Source: a virus
Virus record (IMG/VR): IMGVR_UViG_3300042934_000444
Location: 1-22,539 of that record
DNA length: 22,539 bases
Direction: 5' to 3' (one strand)
The first letter of the stretch is position 1. Each line of letters starts with the position of its first letter. Positions 2,266 to 14,316 of the stretch are shown one piece after another. Both the position numbers and the translations under genes were made by a program. The notes under the pieces were generated by a model. The model saw nothing but the letters and a program-made list of their open reading frames with translations, ran no database searches and was not told the DNA's origin.

Positions 2266-2492
2266 GAGTCCTCCGTGGGGTGGAATCCCCCGTCGTCTGC
2301 GATGGTCAACTCCCGCAACACCCGTTCCCGCTGCGCAACCATCGCGTCCATCGCGTCGTAGTGGCGTTGCGCGTAGTCCCGGTTCGTGGTTGCCACGAAC
2401 AGCCGTGACTCGGTGTGTTCAAGGATTCGGGCGGCTTCGTCTCGGTATCGGATGGCTTCGGTGAGTGCATCGTCAGCATCAGCAGCGTTCAT
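2262..2492 (-). CDS. Small helical hypothetical protein
   Basis: A protein of 76 residues from ATG 2492, which overlaps the upstream stop (ATGA) and is therefore preferred over GTG 2501. It is almost entirely charged and helical, with heptad-like spacing (ALTEAIRYRDEAARILEH), which suggests a short coiled coil. No catalytic motif is seen. It sits directly before the exonuclease gene, overlapping it by four bases. Function is unknown. Confidence 0.7.
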   Translation of the reverse strand: MNAADADDALTEAIRYRDEAARILEHTESRLFVATTNRDYAQRHYDAMDAMVAQRERVLRELTIADDGGFHPTEDS

Positions 2493-2767
2493 TGCTTGCA
2501 CGGCCCCTCATGTCCACCCGCGAGGCAGCACGGCCCGAGCCCGCAGTATCGGAAGTTGTTCTCGGGCGGGTTCTCGTCGCCCCAGTCCGCGATGAGCCCG
2601 TAGGAGACCGCCAGGGCCTCGTACAGCGGCTTCCACATCTGGTTCCCCTCAGGGTGTTCCCGGAGAATGTTGAGGACGCGGTCGACGGCGTGGGCGGCTT
2701 CCCAGCGGAGGGACGTACCGCGGTTCTTCTCGGCGGTGATCGCCTTGAGCATGTTGAGGTCAGTCAT
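2489..2767 (-). CDS. Hypothetical early protein with Cys/His-rich C-terminus
   Basis: A protein of 92 residues from ATG 2767. The start is fixed by a strong AGGAGG site and by the ATGA overlap with the upstream gene; the longer frame to 2902 lacks both. Residues 1-70 are helical (WEAAHAVDRVLNILREHPEG). The tail carries YCGLGPCC and GGHEGPC, a compact set of four cysteines and a histidine that could bind zinc. No family is recognised. Confidence 0.72.
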   Translation of the reverse strand: MTDLNMLKAITAEKNRGTSLRWEAAHAVDRVLNILREHPEGNQMWKPLYEALAVSYGLIADWGDENPPENNFRYCGLGPCCLAGGHEGPCKQ

Positions 2768-3979: not shown

Positions 3980-4012
3980 GACGGGCTCCTCTCGATATCG
4001 GTTCAAAAGCAG

Positions 4013-4029
4013 CGGGGACTCGAACCCCG
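4013..4029 (-). other. tRNA T-arm-like hairpin (element 1)
   Basis: On the minus strand this is CGGGG-TTCGAGT-CCCCG: a perfect 5-bp stem and a 7-base loop that matches the B-box GGTTCGANNCC exactly. No complementary 7-base acceptor strand is found at tRNA spacing upstream, so a full cloverleaf could not be drawn by hand. It may be a tRNA remnant, a non-standard tRNA or a tRNA-like structure. It lies about 30 bases before the gene at 3875-3979. Confidence 0.45.
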
Positions 4030-4130
4030 GAATCTCCTCGGTACTCGCCAGTGGCGATGACGGCATACGTTCCGCCAGGACACTGGACCTTCCCGAGGCG
4101 CGTGTGCCGCCTCGCCTCCGCAGTAGGTGT

Positions 4131-4147
4131 CGGGGACTTGAACCCCG
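4131..4147 (-). other. tRNA T-arm-like hairpin (element 2)
   Basis: On the minus strand this is CGGGG-TTCAAGT-CCCCG, the same stem as element 1 and again a B-box match. It lies 118 bases upstream of element 1 on the transcript. The flanks ACACCTA and TAGGCGG pair only partly and too close for a full tRNA. Both hairpins also share an upstream TGGCG(G/A)GT. Read instead as anticodon arms, the loops would carry CAA and CGA. The true nature is open. Confidence 0.42.
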
Positions 4148-4201
4148 ATGTATGCCATTCACCCGCCACCGCCTAACCCGTACGGCACGGTTCCGGGACG
4201 A

Positions 4202-4348
4202 CTAACCCCCAGCCAACGAACGCCCTAACCCAAGCGCCCCCGGTTCCGACACGAATGCCGGCCAGTCGTGTATCAGGGCCGCACGCAGCGACTCCTGAGA
4301 AATTGATGGTTCCCTTCGACAGAAACCTCCACCCCAACAGCGCCGCAT
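4202..4348 (-). CDS. Weak candidate small ORF
   Basis: A frame of 48 residues from ATG 4348 to TAG. Its second half (QESLRAALIHDWPAFVSE and following) reads like a protein. There is no clear ribosome binding site and it does not overlap a neighbour, unlike almost all genes around it. It could be a real small early gene or chance in the leader of the tRNA-like elements. Confidence 0.25.
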   Translation of the reverse strand: MRRCWGGGFCRREPSISQESLRAALIHDWPAFVSEPGALGLGRSLAGG

Positions 4349-4530
4349 CTCACCAGCGAACGCCCGTCAACAGATGGTCTATTTCGACGCCGCACGGCTC
4401 CTAACCGGCCCCTGAGCGGGGATCGGAATCCGCAGTACAGCTATGTGTTGTTGATCCGCCACGCAAGCGCGACGAATAGTGCTAGGCAGCGATCTGTGAG
4501 CGCCTGCCGAGCGGGTGGAGCGAGCTCGGG
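4349..4530. other. Gene-poor stretch in the early operon
   Basis: Together with 3980-4348 this makes about 550 bases without a well-supported gene, in an operon where genes otherwise overlap. The stretch holds a short stem at the end of the upstream gene (GAGCTCG at 4522-4528 with CGAGCTC at 4536-4542) and no convincing frame. To its left lie the two T-arm-like hairpins, the weak frame at 4202-4348 and one TGTATCA motif (4269-4275). Confidence 0.6.
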
Positions 4531-4641
4531 TCACTCGAGCTCTGGGATGTCCGTGGGGAGTGGCGGGTCTTCTGTGAGGATGTCCGGAACAGGACGGGTC
4601 ACGTTCATCCAGATGCGCGGGTTCGCCTCGTAGACGCTCAT
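4531..4641 (-). CDS. Small acidic proline-rich protein
   Basis: A peptide of 36 residues from ATG 4641, with GGAGG seven bases upstream and an ATGA overlap with the gene before it. It begins MSVYEANPRIWMNVTRP and ends in an acidic, proline-rich tail (TEDPPLPTDIPELE). No family is recognised. The strong coupling signal is the main support. Confidence 0.62.
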   Translation of the reverse strand: MSVYEANPRIWMNVTRPVPDILTEDPPLPTDIPELE

Positions 4642-5757: not shown

Positions 5758-5832
5758 CCCTTTTCGGCCATGTCACACAACTTTTTGGCTACACCGATGT
5801 ATCAGACGGGGATCCCGCGTCTCTGAGAGGGC

Positions 5833-6646: not shown

Positions 6647-6861
6647 ACGCTACAGTCGGGGGTGTGCCCCAGAAGCGAGGAATCGTCAGCGACGCCGACC
6701 AGGCGCGGATTCTCACGGCGCTAGGCAAGCGTGGAGAGTGGGAAGCCGAACTCCGGGAGTCTGTCATCACCGCCGCGCAGCACGGGGCGTCCGTCCGGGA
6801 GTTGGCAGCCTTGACGGGGCTTTCGACAAACACGATCAGCCGATGGAAACGAGGCGAGTGA
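6643..6861 (+). CDS. Small HTH protein
   Basis: A protein of 72 residues from ATG 6643. The C-terminal part ASVRELAALTGLSTNTISRW is a clear helix-turn-helix of the resolvase/XRE-like kind, following a helical charged N-terminal half. A closely similar domain occurs in the gene at 11283-11477. It lies upstream of and coupled to the HNH gene (TGATG), in the integrase block. It is probably a transcription regulator or a small recombination accessory protein. The longer frame to 6487 crosses the promoter candidate and is not used. Confidence 0.65.
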   Translation: MNATVGGVPQKRGIVSDADQARILTALGKRGEWEAELRESVITAAQHGASVRELAALTGLSTNTISRWKRGE

Positions 6862-7184: not shown

Positions 7185-8426
7185 ATGGCTAGGCCACCGC
7201 TTCCCCTGGAGACGTACGGGACGATCCGTACGTTCACTCACAACGGGAAGCCAGCGGCCAGCGCTTACTACCGCGACAGCGACGGTGAGACGCGGCGGAT
7301 GATGCGGACGGGGCGGACCAAGGCACTCGCGGTCAACGCGCTCAAGGAAGCGTTGCGGGATCGTCTGGCGCCGGCCGGGGATCTCATCACCCGCGACTCC
7401 ACCCTTCAGCAGTTGGCTGATGCGTGGAAGGTGGAGATGCTGGCCGACACGAACTTGGCGGACGGGACGAAACTGACCTATCAGGAGGCGTTGAAGGCGG
7501 TTCTGCGGGGTTTGGCGGGTGTTCGTGTTGGGGAGGCTACCCCGGCAAAGCTGAACCGTTATATCCAGGCTGTGGCGAAGAAGACTCCTGGGCAGGCGCG
7601 GACGGTTCGGATCGTGTTGAAGCACATGATGGCGCATGCCGTGTATGCGGGTGCGGTTGACCAGAACCCGGTGCCGGAGACTAAGGCGGTGACGCGAACG
7701 AAGCCGAAGGTGAAGGCGTTGCGTGCGGACGACATCGCCGCCATTCGTGGCCTGCTGGAACTGTGGGATGCCGGGTTCGACAGGTACCAGCGTCCGCGGA
7801 ACGGAAGCCTGCGGGACACGATGGACATGTATGCCGCAACCGGTGCCCGCACGTCCGAGGTTCTGGCGTTGCGGTGGTCTGACTTCAACTTCGACTCGAT
7901 GCCGCCCACGGTCACGATCAACGGGACCGTTGCGCGGAGCATCGACGGGAAGCTGGTCGTGAAGGAAACATTGAAGACGGACAAATCACGGCGTGAGCTC
8001 GAGCTGCCTGTGTTCGTTGTCCCGATGCTCGTGGCACGTGCGGCAGGTGCGTACTCGGATCTAGTGTTCCCCTCTGCGGCCGGAACCCCGAGGTGGCCTG
8101 ACAACCTCCGCAGGGACTGGAGGGCCGCTCTAGAGGGGAGTGGTTACGCGTCCGTGACTCCTGGGGCGTTCCGTAAGGCTGTGGCGACGCTGCTTGCCGA
8201 GGATCTGGGTGTTGAGGCTGCGCGTGACCAGCTTGGGCATACGGGGTTCGGGAATCTGCGGCATTACGTTGAGCAGGCGTCGCGTGGTCCGGCGTCGGCG
8301 GCGACGGTGCAACGGTTGCTGGTTCCGCCGTCTGTGGTGGCTGTTAATGTGAGTGAAGAAGCCCCCGACCCGATTGCGACGGGCCGAGGGCAAGAGTCCG
8401 ATCATGAAGGGATCGAACATGGATAA
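7185..8426 (+). CDS. int: Tyrosine integrase
   Basis: A protein of 413 residues with a GGAGG upstream. It has an N-terminal arm-binding region (1-70), a core-binding domain (about 72-160; TLQQLADAWKVEML to AHAVYAGAVDQNP), and a catalytic domain. Catalytic residues seen are Arg222 (ATGARTSEVLALRW), Lys264 (LKTDKSRREL), Arg330 (TPGAFRK), His352 (QLGHTGF) and Tyr361 (LRHYVEQ). The position usually taken by His in H-x-x-R is Gly327. It joins attP with a host tRNA site. The attP candidate is 855 bases downstream, behind three small genes. The last 30 residues are a polar extension that overlaps the next gene. Confidence 0.95.
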   Translation: MARPPLPLETYGTIRTFTHNGKPAASAYYRDSDGETRRMMRTGRTKALAVNALKEALRDRLAPAGDLITRDSTLQQLADAWKVEMLADTNLADGTKLTYQEALKAVLRGLAGVRVGEATPAKLNRYIQAVAKKTPGQARTVRIVLKHMMAHAVYAGAVDQNPVPETKAVTRTKPKVKALRADDIAAIRGLLELWDAGFDRYQRPRNGSLRDTMDMYAATGARTSEVLALRWSDFNFDSMPPTVTINGTVARSIDGKLVVKETLKTDKSRRELELPVFVVPMLVARAAGAYSDLVFPSAAGTPRWPDNLRRDWRAALEGSGYASVTPGAFRKAVATLLAEDLGVEAARDQLGHTGFGNLRHYVEQASRGPASAATVQRLLVPPSVVAVNVSEEAPDPIATGRGQESDHEGIEHG

Positions 8427-9281: not shown

Positions 9282-9312
9282 TGGTGGCGAGTGAGGGATT
9301 CGAACCCCCGAA
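9282..9312 (-). other. attP: attP core: 3' end of a tRNA gene
   Basis: On the minus strand this reads as the T-arm (GGGGG-TTCGAAT-CCCTC), the 3' acceptor strand ACTCGCC, the discriminator A and CCA. The matching 5' half (GGCGAGT acceptor, D-arm, anticodon) is not present upstream. That is what is expected of a phage attP that carries only the end of the tRNA gene and restores it upon integration. The tRNA identity is not decidable from this part. Phage genes lie on both sides, so the site is uninterrupted. Confidence 0.8.
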
Positions 9313-9488
9313 TGCTGAGCAGTCTGGTATGCAGTCGCGGTTACCTGGCGCTACTTCCCCCTACCGTTTCGCTTGATTCTGCGGGCGAGTAGCCACAGGG
9401 AGTTCCAAGTAGCTTCTGAAAACAGCCACTAAACCGCCACCAGGGTTATCGCATCCGATACTAAGGGTCGCGCGTAGTCACACTTCGA

Positions 9489-9495
9489 TGTATCA
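9489..9495 (+). promoter_or_regulatory. TGTATCA motif upstream of the small gene at 9524
   Basis: The sequence CGATGTATCAGGGG also occurs, with small changes, before the repressor gene (5798-5804), and the 7-mer recurs twice upstream of the paralogous gene at 11474-11620. It may be a -10 element (TGTATC) or an operator half site. No good -35 is visible at this copy. Confidence 0.4.
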
Positions 9496-9523
9496 GGGGA
9501 GCGTTTACCGTCCTCCCACGGTT

Positions 9524-9676
9524 ATGGACACACGTCGCCCCACCATCACACCAGCCACCGAGATCACTCCCCCAGGCATCCCGTACCATGCGGACGACGA
9601 CACCCCGTGTGACTCCCCCGGCCCATGCTCACACTTTCGGCTCGTGTACTGGCGGACACTCCCGTTCCAGTACTGA
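9524..9676 (+). CDS. Small 'DDDT-C' protein, paralogue of the gene at 11474-11620
   Basis: A protein of 50 residues from ATG 9524; ATG 9488 is possible but overlaps the TGTATCA motif. It carries YHADDDTPCDSPGPC and LVYW, matching the pattern HxDDDTxCxSPxxC...VYW of the protein encoded at 11474-11620 on the other strand. The two Cys and the acidic run suggest a metal or nucleotide contact, but no function is known to me. It stands alone between attP and the hairpin that ends the late operon. Confidence 0.55.
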   Translation: MDTRRPTITPATEITPPGIPYHADDDTPCDSPGPCSHFRLVYWRTLPFQY

Positions 9677-9688
9677 CGCAACGCAGAA

Positions 9689-9728
9689 ACGCCCCGCACC
9701 CCACCAGTGAAGGTGGGATGCGGGGCGT
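9689..9728 (-). terminator. Terminator of the late/lysis operon (and of the facing small gene)
   Basis: ACGCCCCGCA (9689-9698) pairs with TGCGGGGCGT (9719-9728), with an inner CCCACC/GGTGGG helix, giving a stem of about 16 bp. TTTCTGCG follows on the minus strand. It lies six bases beyond the stop of the last lysis-region gene and 12 bases beyond the stop of the convergent gene at 9524-9676. Confidence 0.8.
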
Positions 9729-9734
9729 GAGTGG

Positions 9735-9803
9735 TTAGAACCAGTAGAACAGGAACCCGAAGACGAGGCGGATCGAGTTCCCCTTGAACGGTGTGCGGAT
9801 CAC
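9735..9803 (-). CDS. 22-residue membrane-type peptide
   Basis: GTG 9803 overlaps the stop of the holin-like gene (GTGA) and opens a frame of 22 residues, MIRTPFKGNSIRLVFGFLFYWF. It has a basic N-terminus and a hydrophobic, aromatic C-terminus, and its stop is just before the terminator stem. The coupling and position make it credible although it is very short. It may modulate lysis or be a non-functional tail of the operon. Confidence 0.45.
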   Translation of the reverse strand: MIRTPFKGNSIRLVFGFLFYWF

Positions 9804-10015
9804 TCCGGGCCGTCCGTGGGTGCGTTCGGGAACTGGTAGACGCTGAACGCGGTAGCGACGGCGAGGCCGATCTTCAGCCACTTGGAGACCTCGTCATCGA
9901 TGGGCAGTTCACCCGACAGGATGATGAGTGCACCACCCAGCACGGCAACCCAGAACTTCGTGTACTTCTGTGCCGACTTGATCCAAGCCGACACGTTCTC
10001 GTGAAACTTCTCCAC
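9800..10015 (-). CDS. Holin-like membrane protein
   Basis: A protein of 71 residues from GTG 10015, with AGGAGG at ideal spacing. Two hydrophobic helices (FWVAVLGGALIILSGELP and WLKIGLAVATAFSVYQFP) are separated by a short acidic turn, and the end is PNAPTDGPE. The pattern, with a lysine-rich N-terminus and 'P...W...A.AT...VY..PN', is usual for actinobacteriophage holins. It sits downstream of the endolysin. It would permeabilise the membrane at the end of infection. Confidence 0.78.
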   Translation of the reverse strand: MEKFHENVSAWIKSAQKYTKFWVAVLGGALIILSGELPIDDEVSKWLKIGLAVATAFSVYQFPNAPTDGPE

Positions 10016-10024
10016 GATTCCTCC

Positions 10025-10249
10025 TCATTCGATTTCGTCAAGCCAGCCGTCAGGCGGCTCGGGCAAAGGGACTCCAGGGGCGTGCTTGTACGCGTGGTCG
10101 ATGAGTGACCGGATGTACAGCCAGGAGAGTTTGTCGCGCCGCTCGAGGCGACCCAGGCGTCCGGACAGGCGGGTGAGCCATGCGATGAACGCGGTCAGCA
10201 TCCCTCCGCCGATGACGGAGATGAGTGCGATCGTTACCCCCTCGGTCAC
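10025..10249 (-). CDS. Membrane protein of the lysis cassette (second holin or antiholin candidate)
   Basis: A protein of 74 residues from GTG 10249, overlapping the endolysin stop (GTGA). One N-terminal transmembrane helix (VTIALISVIGGGMLTAFIAWLT) is followed by a basic amphipathic stretch (RLSGRLGRLERRDKLSW) and a soluble tail ending in acidic residues. Such proteins next to a two-helix holin are often second holins or holin regulators. The role is inferred from position and topology. Confidence 0.72.
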   Translation of the reverse strand: MTEGVTIALISVIGGGMLTAFIAWLTRLSGRLGRLERRDKLSWLYIRSLIDHAYKHAPGVPLPEPPDGWLDEIE

Positions 10250-11217
10250 GACTGCATCCGATCGGCGGCGTCGTCGTTCACTGCCTGAGCGATCTGCTCC
10301 GGTGTCGGCAACGAAAGACCATCGCGGACCCGCGCCGCGATCTGTGCCTTGTCGTCATCAGACAGGCTCACAGTGACCGCAGGGGATGAGGTGCGCAGCC
10401 AAGACGCGACATAGAACCGTCCACCACCCAGCGAATGAAGGAACGCCTGCAACTCCGCCGCGGTCCCCGACGTCGGAAAACACTCCTGCAACCCGTGGTT
10501 CCACATCTCCGCGATCATCTCGTCGTTGGTGAGGGTGTGAACCTTCCCCGTGGTGAGGTGCGCATAGTTGTGGCCCTGGTCGCCTGGTGCGTTCTTGATG
10601 TACCCGACACCGAGGAGGAAGATCCACCCGTTCAGCAGGGTCGGACAGGTGACAGTTATCATGAAGTCCTCCAGGTAGGGGGGGTTGGGTTCCGGCTCGG
10701 GCGGGCTGAATGGGACCGCCCCGATTCCTGCGGTGACGGCCCGCCACGGTTCGAGGTCGATGACATGCCAGGGCTCGTCGGGGTAGCCGCGTTCACGCGA
10801 GATCATCCCCGGGGTGAGCCCCACCGCCCGACAGTCGGCGTAGAACCGGCCCCGGTCGCCGTTGTAGACGTATGACCAGTTGCCGTAATCCATCGCCAGG
10901 GTGTCTTGGCGTTCCCAGTACCCGCCGTGCGACGACGTACCGACCGTTGCGGCACCGTTCCCGTACAGGGTGCGGGCGATGGTCTGCCCGTAGAGGGGCC
11001 GGTAGCAGGAGAACCCGGCCGAGAGTTGAAGCCGCTTCCCCGTGTTCTTCAGGGCGCGGGCGACCAGCGCGACATGCTTCGCATACGTGCCCGGGGTGAG
11101 TCCCTGATACCAGTCCTCAACGAGCGTCCCACCACCCTTCAACTGGTGGACTGTGCGGCCCCGGTTGAAGATGTGGAGTTCATGCTCTGGGATTTGCCCG
11201 TTTGGGTACTTCGGCAT
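10246..11217 (-). CDS. Endolysin, M15 (VanY-like) D-Ala peptidase
   Basis: A protein of 323 residues from ATG 11217 with GGAGG upstream. Residues about 40-160 form an M15 peptidase: YRPLYGQ (72-78), SSHGGYWERQDTLAMD with zinc ligands His97 and Asp110, then Glu148 and His151 in DEPWHVID. It would cleave peptide bonds in peptidoglycan stems. A Pro/Glu-rich linker (170-182) leads to a C-terminal part (185-323) that I cannot assign and that may bind the wall. It ends in a helical segment resembling DDDKAQIAARVRDGLSLPTPEQIAQAV. It is first in the lysis cassette, before the holins. Confidence 0.88.
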   Translation of the reverse strand: MPKYPNGQIPEHELHIFNRGRTVHQLKGGGTLVEDWYQGLTPGTYAKHVALVARALKNTGKRLQLSAGFSCYRPLYGQTIARTLYGNGAATVGTSSHGGYWERQDTLAMDYGNWSYVYNGDRGRFYADCRAVGLTPGMISRERGYPDEPWHVIDLEPWRAVTAGIGAVPFSPPEPEPNPPYLEDFMITVTCPTLLNGWIFLLGVGYIKNAPGDQGHNYAHLTTGKVHTLTNDEMIAEMWNHGLQECFPTSGTAAELQAFLHSLGGGRFYVASWLRTSSPAVTVSLSDDDKAQIAARVRDGLSLPTPEQIAQAVNDDAADRMQS

Positions 11218-11234
11218 TGGTACCTCCAGGCATG

Positions 11235-11262
11235 CAAAAAAGCCCCCGACATGCGGAGGCTT
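11235..11262 (-). terminator. Intrinsic terminator upstream of the endolysin gene
   Basis: On the minus strand AAGCCTCCG (11262-11254) pairs with CGGGGGCTT (11248-11240) with one G-T pair, a 5-base loop and a run of T. This is a textbook intrinsic terminator 21 bases after the stop of the gene at 11283-11477. It also means late transcripts must read through it, or the lysis genes have their own promoter. Confidence 0.82.
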
Positions 11263-11282
11263 TCGTGGTTGATCGGGGCGGG

Positions 11283-11477
11283 TTAGTTGCCGTCGATGAT
11301 CTTGCGGATGGTGTTCGGTGCTAGCCCGGTGAACGCGGCGAGCTCACGGATCGACGCATCGTCGTTCGCGGCTGCGGCGATCGCATCCCGGTACGCCCGG
11401 TCAGCACGTTCCTTCGCAGCCTCAGCACGCCTAATCGCGGCCTGATGCTTCGCGGGAACGGTGCCCCGGACTGTCAC
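11283..11477 (-). CDS. Small HTH protein in the moron-like cassette
   Basis: A protein of 64 residues from GTG 11477, which overlaps the upstream stop (GTGA). A helical, Ala/Arg-rich first half (AAIRRAEAAKERADRAYRDAI) precedes the helix-turn-helix ASIRELAAFTGLAPNTIRKI. The latter closely resembles the HTH at the end of the protein encoded at 6643-6861 (ASVRELAALTGLSTNTISRW). It is probably a DNA-binding regulator. It is followed by an intrinsic terminator, so the cassette is separate from the lysis genes. Confidence 0.7.
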   Translation of the reverse strand: MTVRGTVPAKHQAAIRRAEAAKERADRAYRDAIAAAANDDASIRELAAFTGLAPNTIRKIIDGN

Positions 11478-11620
11478 TCGCCCAGTGTAGGGAACTCGTG
11501 CAGTGGGGCACCGCCAACCCAGTAGACGGTGCGACCGCACACGTCGGGTGACGTGCATTCGGTGTCGTCGTCGAGGTGGAGTGCGCCGACCGGGTAGACC
11601 CGGGTGGTTGTGGTGGTCAT
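11474..11620 (-). CDS. Small 'DDDT-C' protein, paralogue of the gene at 9524-9676
   Basis: A protein of 48 residues from ATG 11620, with GAAGGG seven bases upstream; ATG 11626 lies too near that site. After a run of Thr it reads VYPVGALHLDDDTECTSPDVC, then RTVYWVGGAP. The HxDDDTxCxSPxxC and VYW pattern matches the small gene at 9524. It is the first gene of a unit with its own promoter and terminator inside the late operon. Function is unknown. Confidence 0.68.
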   Translation of the reverse strand: MTTTTTRVYPVGALHLDDDTECTSPDVCGRTVYWVGGAPLHEFPTLGE

Positions 11621-11648
11621 TGTCATGCCCTTCACTGTGTCACTGATT

Positions 11649-11678
11649 GATACAGTGGGCAAGAGGGAACCGTGTCAA
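11649..11678 (-). promoter_or_regulatory. Candidate promoter of the moron-like cassette
   Basis: On the minus strand TTGACA (11678-11673), an 18-base spacer and TGTATC (11654-11649). The -35 is a perfect consensus. A second TGTATCA lies upstream at 11689-11683. Transcription would start near 11641, about 20 bases before the ATG. It sits in the 70 bases after the last fibre gene. Confidence 0.6.
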
Positions 11679-11692
11679 CCGGTGATACACAC

Positions 11693-12520
11693 CTACTGGA
11701 TCGGAACCCACGCACCCGCGACACGGAGGAACCGTTTCGGGTCCACCGGATCCCCACCACCACCCTCAGTGAGCGAGATGTCGGCGCCAGTCGCGGCCGG
11801 CCAGTCATCGTCAGACGGCGCAGTGAACGCCAAATCCGACCCGCCACGAACGAGCCTCGGACGGGAACCCGTGCAGTTGAACGGGCTAGCCCCCGTCGCA
11901 CCGAACCTCAGATCAGCGTTCAGCCGTAGCGCCCCGCCCATGCTCACCCCGTAAGCAGCGGAACCGCTACCTCCCGAGAGTGTGCCATTCACAGTTACCT
12001 GCGCGCCTCCGCCGTTGATGCCGAGAACGGAGCTAGCACTTCCGCCCGTAACAGTTCCATTTACGGTGATAACTGGGGTGCCGCCGCCGTAGTCAATACC
12101 GTGTGCTCCTGAGAGCGATCCGCCCGTCACATCCCCGTTGATCGTCAGTGTCGCCGAGACTGAGACGTTTATCCCGCGGCGGTTCGTGGAGCTTCCGCCC
12201 GCAATGTTGCCGTTGACTACTACGGTGGGAGTCCCGGACGTGATGTTCAGGACAGACGAGCTGTTCGTCGCATTATCACCAGCCTGTATGCCATCAGCGA
12301 TCGTGATGGTCGCTGATGCCGTCACGTTGAACGTGCCACCTACTGCGATGACGGGGGAGGCGTTCGCGATCTTCTTGAGCGACTTGACGCTGATGTCCTG
12401 GTTGATGCTGACGGTGAAAGCGTTCGCGTACACGTCGTCAGCCGACGTCGGAAGTACCCCCGTGCTCCACACCGTCGTGTCAGACCAGACACCCGTTTTC
12501 GTTGCGTAGACGATAGCCAT
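11693..12520 (-). CDS. Beta-repeat tail fibre or adhesin-like protein
   Basis: A protein of 275 residues from ATG 12520, joined to the upstream gene by TGATG. The N-terminus has GVWSDTTVWSTGVLPTSADDVYA, a G8-domain-like entry. It is followed by a Thr/Val/Asn/Gly-rich region with four imperfect repeats of the type 'T(V/L)T(V/I)NG-(V/I/L)-GGS' at about 99-110, 125-135, 150-161 and 175-185. That layout suggests a right-handed beta-helix. It is last in the fibre gene group, so it is a receptor-contact or virion-decoration candidate. No enzymatic motif is seen. Confidence 0.72.
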   Translation of the reverse strand: MAIVYATKTGVWSDTTVWSTGVLPTSADDVYANAFTVSINQDISVKSLKKIANASPVIAVGGTFNVTASATITIADGIQAGDNATNSSSVLNITSGTPTVVVNGNIAGGSSTNRRGINVSVSATLTINGDVTGGSLSGAHGIDYGGGTPVITVNGTVTGGSASSVLGINGGGAQVTVNGTLSGGSGSAAYGVSMGGALRLNADLRFGATGASPFNCTGSRPRLVRGGSDLAFTAPSDDDWPAATGADISLTEGGGGDPVDPKRFLRVAGAWVPIQ

Positions 12521-13179
12521 CAGGCGCTAATCCATTCGTCGCCATCGACCGCGTTCGTCGGGTCGTCGACACCCTCGGTGCCCGTGTACTGCCAGAAGTT
12601 CTTCGGAAGTGACGCGTTACGCGTGGCACCCTGCGTGGTGTGCGGGTTCATCGCGGAACCGTCCGCAATCGCCAGATCGGAACCGGCTGCGTCGACCCAC
12701 TCCGCGTCGTAGTCCGTGCCAGAGTTCTTCGCGAGCACCTGACCGGTCGTGCCACCTGCGGGTACGCCTACGCCATCTGCCCCGTCGGTACCGTTCGTGC
12801 CGTTAGTGCCGTTAGTGCCATTCGTCCCATCTGCACCGTCCGATCCCTGAAGGGATGCGAGCCAAGCGGCCTCAGTCCCGACGAAACCATTGTTGACAGC
12901 GACCTGATACGCCGAATCCCCGTCAGCACCATCGGTGCCGTTCGTCCCGTCAGCGCCGTCCGTGCCGTTGGTCCCGTTCGTCCCGTTTGTGCCGGGAGTG
13001 CCCGGGGCGCCATCAGCACCATCGGTACCCTGAAGATCCTCGAGCCACTCCTCGACGGTGCCTACAAACCCGTTCGCCACCGCAACGTCAAACGCCGACG
13101 CGCCCGGCGTGCCAGGCTGACCAGTGGGCACCCGGACAACGACTGTCTCAACGACAGGAACCCGCACAACATCGGTCAT
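12520..13179 (-). CDS. Collagen-like tail fibre protein
   Basis: A protein of 219 residues from ATG 13179 (ATGA overlap with the gene before). Two units of a motif with A-V-x-N-G-F-V-G-T and a following WL (30-50 and 90-111) each lead into Gly-X-Y runs: about 51-87 and 112-137, made mainly of GTD, GAD and GTN triplets. Then GTTGQVLAKNSGTDYDAEW (143-161), common in phage fibres, and a C-terminal domain. Gly-X-Y triplets imply a trimeric collagen-like shaft. It is part of the host-recognition fibre set. Confidence 0.82.
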   Translation of the reverse strand: MTDVVRVPVVETVVVRVPTGQPGTPGASAFDVAVANGFVGTVEEWLEDLQGTDGADGAPGTPGTNGTNGTNGTDGADGTNGTDGADGDSAYQVAVNNGFVGTEAAWLASLQGSDGADGTNGTNGTNGTNGTDGADGVGVPAGGTTGQVLAKNSGTDYDAEWVDAAGSDLAIADGSAMNPHTTQGATRNASLPKNFWQYTGTEGVDDPTNAVDGDEWISA

Positions 13180-13601
13180 CGCGTCACATCCAGTCGCCAC
13201 TTCGTCTTAGCCCGGGTGAGAGTACGCACGCTGGGAAGCGCCGCCTGGATGTCGAACACACCAGAATCGCCCATCGCGCGCGTCTGCGCCTCCGACGCCC
13301 CGAGTGTGATGACTCCAGTCGCCGCAGCGCTCGCGTCGACAGTGAGGCTGATGGCGAGAGAGTCGTCCGACTCTGCGACGGGACGCCACTGCGAGCTCCA
13401 CGACGACAAGCCCGACAAGTCATCCGGTTCCCACGTGTCAGCATTCGCGGGGTCCAGCGCAAGCCACTCCTGGACCGTGCCCGCGTACCCGGCAGACACC
13501 GCCGCCGTGTAACCCGTGTACTCCCCGAACTCGAACGACTGCGACCACGCATCACCCGCATACACGTTGTAAGGGGTGGAATCGATGAACACTTCAGCCA
13601 T
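13176..13601 (-). CDS. Minor tail or fibre-associated protein
   Basis: A protein of 141 residues from ATG 13601, overlapping the upstream gene by eight bases. It opens with a beta-rich segment (MAEVFIDSTPYNVYAGDAWS), then YTAAVSAGYAGTVQEWLAL (31-49), a diverged copy of the motif in the collagen-like fibre. The remainder is beta-rich (SLAISLTVDASAAATGVITLG). It sits between two fibre genes and is probably a baseplate or fibre adaptor, which is inference from position. Confidence 0.65.
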   Translation of the reverse strand: MAEVFIDSTPYNVYAGDAWSQSFEFGEYTGYTAAVSAGYAGTVQEWLALDPANADTWEPDDLSGLSSWSSQWRPVAESDDSLAISLTVDASAAATGVITLGASEAQTRAMGDSGVFDIQAALPSVRTLTRAKTKWRLDVTR

Positions 13602-14316
13602 TACGACCCCTTAGTTCCTCTTCAAGAGCTTCAATGCGTGCAAGGAGAACGGCGATCTGCGCCGTGTGCATCCCCTGCGTGTCAATCCCCGCAGGCTCCC
13701 CCTCGTCATCAACGACAAGGAACCGTTCAGCATCCGTCCCGACAAGGTCATCAGCCATCGGACCAATACGCCGACGACCGTTCCCCTCGATGTACTCCCA
13801 CTCGAAAAGGACCGGGAAGACCGACACCAGATCCGGCGCGGGCTCGATGTTCGTCTTCAGACGCCGAGCGGACGGGTTCGAGAACGTCCCCGGCACCACA
13901 ACCGTGTGATCCGCAGTACCCAGCATCACCTGATCCGCGGCGGTCGTCACAGCCCCAGTACCAACCGCCGTGCTAGAACTATGCACCGCGTTAGCGTCGT
14001 AACCGAGAGCCATCGAACTGTCGTGAGACGCAAGCGACCCGCGCCCCAACGCCACACTCCCGAACGCCCACGACTGAGCCGAAGCCCCGACAGCCACAGA
14101 ACCCACGGCAGTCGCGTCTGTCCCGTACCCGAGGGCGACAGAAAGGTTCGCCGACGCGGTGCTGAGTTGACCGATCTGTAGAGACGCAGACCCACCACTA
14201 CCCTCATGCGAACCATCCGTACCGCCAGCAGAACCCGTGCCAGCCTCCAACCGTTCAACACGCTTCCGCAGCGTCCGGTCCCCAGCATTCAGATCAGACG
14301 GGTCATCAGCCGGCAT
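13594..14316 (-). CDS. Tail fibre with YadA-like head repeats and S74 chaperone domain
   Basis: A protein of 240 residues. After a helical N-terminus (1-25) and a Gly/Ser linker, residues about 52-133 hold YadA-type head repeats: SVALGYGTDATAVGSVAVG, then SVALGRGSLASHDSSMALG, then STAVGTGAV. From 140 follows an intramolecular chaperone autocleavage domain: NPSARRLKTNIEPA with Ser149 and Lys154 as the expected catalytic pair, FEWEYIEGNGRRRIGPMADDL, and a C-terminal coiled coil (IAVLLARIEALEEELRG). In known members this domain folds the trimer and then removes itself. Receptor binding is the likely role. Confidence 0.85.
   Translation of the reverse strand: MPADDPSDLNAGDRTLRKRVERLEAGTGSAGGTDGSHEGSGGSASLQIGQLSTASANLSVALGYGTDATAVGSVAVGASAQSWAFGSVALGRGSLASHDSSMALGYDANAVHSSSTAVGTGAVTTAADQVMLGTADHTVVVPGTFSNPSARRLKTNIEPAPDLVSVFPVLFEWEYIEGNGRRRIGPMADDLVGTDAERFLVVDDEGEPAGIDTQGMHTAQIAVLLARIEALEEELRGRNG

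Follow-up and report, generated by a model that had tools for sequence, protein, structure and literature searches.

Two optional cassettes of a new small-protein family on either side of the lysis genes in temperate Microbacterium phages

Two small genes, referred to here as DDDT1 and DDDT2, face each other across the endolysin-holin genes of a linear virus record from IMG/VR that is 22,539 bases long (the window). This arrangement raises the questions of whether the two genes are related, whether they form a single duplicated module, how they are controlled and what they might do. Both open reading frames were confirmed where the original prediction had placed them (Table 1), with two possible starts for DDDT2: the first ATG gives a gene at 11474-11626, whereas the second, at 11620, gives one at 11474-11620 that encodes 48 residues. 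Comparison of the carriers establishes the homology of the genes, their nature as cassettes, the conservation of the candidate operators and the change of these operators together with the regulator. The best overall explanation, which we consider fairly probable, is that of two separate optional cargo cassettes, of which the DDDT2 cassette would be self-regulated, with a payload that most likely acts against or modifies a host function.

Table 1. Features of the window that bear on the two cassettes.
Feature	Position	Strand	Remarks
Integrase gene	7185-8426	+	followed by small genes
Likely attP core	9285-9315	.	same sequence as the 3' end of tRNA-Tyr in many Microbacteriaceae
Leader element of DDDT1, GATGTATCAGGGGAGCGTTTACCGTCCTCCC	9487-9517	+	31 bp; 5' border of the cassette
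DDDT1 gene	9524-9676	+	50 aa
Bidirectional terminator stem separating DDDT1 from the last lysis gene	9688-9729	.	fold -38 kcal/mol
Two small membrane-protein genes	9800-10249	-	holin-like; phrog_26963 and phrog_17495, membrane protein
Endolysin-position gene	10246-11217	-	assigned by position and relatives; unrelated endolysin types here in relatives
Terminator between HTH gene and endolysin	11235-11262	-	fold
HTH gene	11283-11477	-	64 aa; GTG start overlaps DDDT2 stop (GTGA); predicted autorepressor
DDDT2-HTH cassette	11286-11692	-	about 407 bp; bounded via the empty site in L026
DDDT2 gene	11474-11626	-	50 aa
Core promoter of DDDT2	11634-11662	-	TTGCCC-17-CACAGT; ends 7 nt before the first ATG
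Candidate operator O2	11636-11654	.	palindrome TGTATCA-N5-TGACACA, between -35 and -10
Candidate operator O1	11671-11689	.	palindrome TGTATCA-N5-TGACACG, 35 bp upstream of O2

The similarity of DDDT1 to DDDT2 is far above chance. Their local alignment scores 76, compared to a maximum of 58 among 20,000 shuffles, and BLASTP finds 17/35 identical residues (E 1e-7, for a single comparison), in line with the shared motif claimed in the original prediction; the profile match it had called for is likewise significant (profile-profile comparison, 96% probability, E 2.5e-9). The pN/pS values of 0.27 for DDDT1 (16 distinct sequences) and 0.36 for the core of DDDT2 (14 distinct sequences) indicate that both genes are coding and under purifying selection. 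Nine alignment columns (T, T, P, H, D, D, C, C, R) do not vary in any variant, even when a prophage of a third origin is included. DDDT1 and DDDT2 belong to a single new family, whose members are small, acidic and share an invariant H...DD...C-x5-C...R core. The structure prediction for DDDT2 is of low confidence (pLDDT 59), so the fold gives no hint for any target; a fold search with this model returned no match.

About 30 IMG/VR contigs and two prophages, one of them in a Microbacterium genome, carry the family. Both genes were found in contigs from two metagenomes, and most long contigs carry both; as nearly all comparative data derive from these two metagenomes, probably from one environment, the contigs are not independent lineages. 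No convincing match to the family was obtained in INPHARED, Pfam, PHROGs, NCBIfam, PADLOC or PDB sequences, a pattern scan of GTDB R220 gave no relative, and scores in a family sample were at chance level only. A genus search with a wider profile identified one lysogen, a Microbacterium (G468), whose chromosome shows the same arrangement, DDDT1 being preceded by the same leader and DDDT2-HTH by both operators. The prophage in question has a different integrase, with a tRNA-His gene close by (L283 8191-9471), and the cassettes are therefore not bound to one att site. A 42-kb record from outside the two metagenomes (G430), apparently the prophage of an isolate, has one DDDT gene in the slot between tail gene and endolysin, and no HTH homolog was found anywhere in this record. 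The carriers are temperate phages of Microbacterium (Microbacteriaceae) that together form a mosaic group. The window itself is not closely matched by any of 50,697 phage records, and an Rfam search of it gave no element, only one chance match.

The late genes of the window lie on the minus strand and end with the endolysin-position gene, for which no family match below E 0.06 was obtained, and the two small membrane-protein genes. The 31-base core beyond them is likely attP: it is matched exactly in at least 119 genome stretches, and ARAGORN calls a tRNA-Tyr(gta) that terminates at it. DDDT1 is an orphan cargo gene between this core and the lysis terminator, beyond which the last lysis gene ends at 9800. 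Strong terminators had been proposed to follow both genes, that of the minus-strand copy as its own. The hairpins do exist, but the one at 9688-9729 also occurs in L210 and L211, relatives without DDDT1, and an equivalent of the one at 11235-11262 is present in L026, a relative without the DDDT2-HTH cassette; both terminators thus belong to the phage backbone and not to the modules, and a terminator belonging to the minus-strand copy itself is not supported. At the 9688-9729 site, two unrelated bidirectional terminator hairpins substitute for each other among close relatives.

DDDT1 is absent from L209, L210 and L211, although its slot is covered in all three. In L210 and L211 leader and gene are both missing and the lysis terminator directly adjoins the att region, and in L209 a different small gene (2275-2583, minus strand) fills the slot. 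It follows that the DDDT1 slot takes variable cargo; it lies at the edge of the prophage, where lysogenic-conversion genes are usually found. The gene in the L209 slot recurs immediately ahead of DDDT1 in L025, L026 and the prophage of G468. At the 5' border of the DDDT1 cassette, the leader GATGTATCAGGGGAGCGTTTACCGTCCTCCC has a mean column entropy of 0.06 bits, whereas the sequence immediately preceding it has 1.53 and the third codon positions of DDDT1 have 0.52; upstream of the leader the carriers are unrelated, with the attP region in some and other small genes in others. Substitutions in the leader show no preference for third codon positions, and in L022 an extra base between leader and DDDT1 shifts the frame, indicating that the leader is a nucleic-acid element rather than an N-terminal extension. 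A start of DDDT1 at 9488 (MYQGSVYRPP...) was rejected for these reasons, the leader being kept as DNA and not as codons and the L022 copy being frameshifted there. The leader lacks a clear -35.

DDDT2 sits between a tail gene and the endolysin, and the HTH gene claimed to be next to it was recovered. This gene follows DDDT2 in all sampled relatives from the two metagenomes in which the gene end is visible. It matches phrog_5497 (HTH DNA binding protein, E 1.9e-6), and its protein is modeled with pLDDT 86 as a long helix plus HTH; a fold search with this model returned generic HTH matches only. A paralog of the protein, 39% identical and conserved in relatives, is encoded at 6667-6861 on the plus strand, upstream of an HNH/endonuclease-VII-like ORF and the integrase. 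Three allelic types of DDDT2-HTH, the third uncovered by a scan with an L020 variant, occupy the same slot, while the flanking tail genes and endolysins vary freely among carriers, from which we conclude that the pair moves as a unit. The borders of this unit are given by the empty site in L026, where CCAGTAACCCGCCCC spans from the tail-gene stop straight to the terminator: the stop directly joins CCCGCCCC and the terminator at the point where the window carries an insertion of about 407 bp. L026 still has its lysis genes, and it carries DDDT1 while its DDDT2-HTH slot is empty. The earlier description of the minus-strand copy as a moron-like unit therefore holds, in that DDDT2-HTH is insertable and has its own promoter-like region. 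The idea of a duplicated module is not supported: the genes are homologous and accessory, but DDDT1 has neither an HTH gene nor twin operators and occupies a separate slot that is filled independently.

Upstream of DDDT2, TTGNNN-17-YACMST is found at -36/-35 in 25/25 copies, with a -10 (CACAGT) that is a weak match to the consensus. Since this promoter lies so near the first ATG, the mRNA may be leaderless or may be started at the second ATG. The TTGACA/TGTATC promoter of the original prediction was rejected in favor of this conserved one, as TTGACA reads TTGATA, TGGATA or GGGATA in relatives and TGTATC reads CGTATC in type 2. In the form GTATC-N7-GAYAC, O2 occurs without mismatch at -27 in 18/18 copies of types 1 and 2, compared to 0/7 of type 3, and O1 occurs with 0-1 mismatch at -61/-62 in the same 18/18; the right half of O1 is TGATACR in many relatives. 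The type-3 copies (7/7) have neither palindrome, and their HTH recognition region differs. This change of the palindromes with the HTH type is the main evidence for the HTH protein as the regulator, and predicts that it autorepresses the DDDT2 promoter, as in acr-aca operons. The type-2 copy in L013 has a type-1-like operator sequence, in keeping with the recognition helices of these two types, which are nearly identical. From the anatomy of the promoter, DDDT2 expression in a lysogen is predicted to be low and self-limited.

TGTATCA, which had been noted before both genes, occurs 5 times in the window versus 0.9 expected. It is present at both places, but before DDDT2 it is half of each of two palindromes, and before DDDT1 it is the start of the non-palindromic leader. 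A further stretch, TGTATCAGGGG, lies upstream of both the type-3 DDDT2 copies and DDDT1, hinting at a common control of the two. Another TGTATCA, positionally conserved, lies at 4269 within an apparently non-coding region (4000-4640) that also contains two minus-strand tRNA-like T-arms not called by ARAGORN.

These elements suggest a course of events in which host RNA polymerase would transcribe the DDDT2 cassette (promoter, payload gene and HTH gene) after phage entry. The HTH protein would then bind O2, between -35 and -10, and O1, further upstream, and turn the promoter off. The presumed outcome is an early burst of DDDT2 followed by silence, and the shut-off would also keep the promoter from disturbing the neighboring endolysin and adjacent late genes. 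DDDT1, at the edge of the prophage, would be driven by a leader of its own.

Among the closest known systems are acr-aca operons, whose core promoter contains an inverted repeat and which may have a second, similar repeat beyond it (PMC9410906). Like the operons with Aca1-Aca10 promoters described there, DDDT2-HTH has a small cargo gene first and an HTH gene second on the same strand, with an inverted repeat in the core promoter (O2, in 18/18 type-1/2 copies and in none of type 3) and another outside (O1). It differs in a payload without demonstrated anti-CRISPR activity, an HTH protein without an established Aca family, and hosts in which CRISPR-Cas is rare. For these reasons we do not class DDDT2-HTH among the acr-aca operons, although by analogy it would work like one. 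The strict form of this reading, with DDDT2 as an Acr and the HTH protein as an Aca, agrees with the operon order, gene sizes and operator layout described for acr-aca (PMC9410906, PMC9765179), yet we regard it as highly improbable: searches of PDB sequences and PDB profiles gave no known Acr or Aca homology, and no Aca was among the PDB profile matches listed for the HTH protein, the sole comparison with known Aca proteins. Moreover, Cas1 was found in only 14/199 sampled genomes of the host family and not in the lysogen G468, which makes a CRISPR target unlikely. The SAS/ESAS elements of cluster K mycobacteriophages (PMC3203893) resemble the DDDT2 operators in that they are conserved and directly precede certain small genes, with paired imperfect inverted repeats in the extended form. 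The DDDT2 operators differ from them in sequence, are confined to a single operon and vary with the HTH type of that operon.

Like morons and lysogenic-conversion genes of temperate phages, the DDDT cassettes are optional, are inserted between phage genes and may have a promoter region of their own, and one of the two lies at the prophage edge by att; here, however, the flanking terminators are backbone, one cassette has its own regulator, and DDDT has no known conversion function. If the proteins were made in the lysogen to guard against other phages, by superinfection exclusion or another conversion function, one would expect the location of DDDT1 between lysis terminator and attP, in a slot with different genes in relatives, as well as the presence of both cassettes in an integrated Microbacterium prophage. 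We nevertheless find this unlikely, given that the proteins have no apparent membrane segment and match no known exclusion family (PHROGs, Pfam, NCBIfam, PADLOC), and that the operators built into the DDDT2 promoter predict low expression in a lysogen. A role of the HTH protein and DDDT2 in tuning the adjoining endolysin-holin genes, as regulators of lysis timing or late genes, would explain why the cassette is constantly placed just upstream of the endolysin. This is improbable, as a terminator separates the two, L026 retains its lysis genes without the cassette, and the cassette pairs with unrelated endolysin types. The two small overlapping genes, the autorepressor-like second gene and the twin promoter palindromes also resemble a type II toxin-antitoxin operon, with DDDT2 as toxin and the HTH protein as antitoxin and autorepressor. 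Yet DDDT genes exist without any HTH partner, as the solo gene in G430 and as DDDT1, including that of L026 with its empty DDDT2-HTH slot, and no toxin family was matched in Pfam or NCBIfam. As a toxin would then not always be accompanied by its antitoxin, we rejected the strict version of this explanation and give the general one very little credence.

We therefore return to the two optional cargo cassettes, whose payload most likely neutralizes or modifies a host function. Our best guess is anti-defence or host-takeover cargo; anti-defence as the target is the leading guess, though one more apt to be wrong than right. A wider proposal, speculative and rather doubtful, is that the DDDT proteins make up a new class of counter-defence proteins, possibly metal-binding via H-x6-C-x5-C, which phages of Microbacteriaceae use in two ways, as the product of an orphan conversion gene and as payload in a new type of HTH-regulated operon. 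If it were true, the HTH gene could serve as bait for other anti-defence genes of actinophages; in proteobacterial phages, cargo operons that are small and autoregulated have proved a rich source of anti-defence proteins. DDDT is a defined and testable candidate family in Microbacterium phages, for which natural presence/absence variants, a regulator-less paralog and a chromosomal lysogen are at hand. Should the payload not be anti-defence, the cassette would still offer a compact operator/regulator pair with natural specificity variants.

Two other parts of the window deserve mention. At 5796-5832 on the plus strand, GATGTATCAG followed by AGACG-N9-CGTCT lies between two divergent HTH-like genes and is conserved in L009, L019, L020 and L033. 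Among the tail genes, those at 12520-13200 and 13594-14316, both on the minus strand, include by eye a collagen-like repeat protein and a C-terminus like that of endosialidase-type chaperones.
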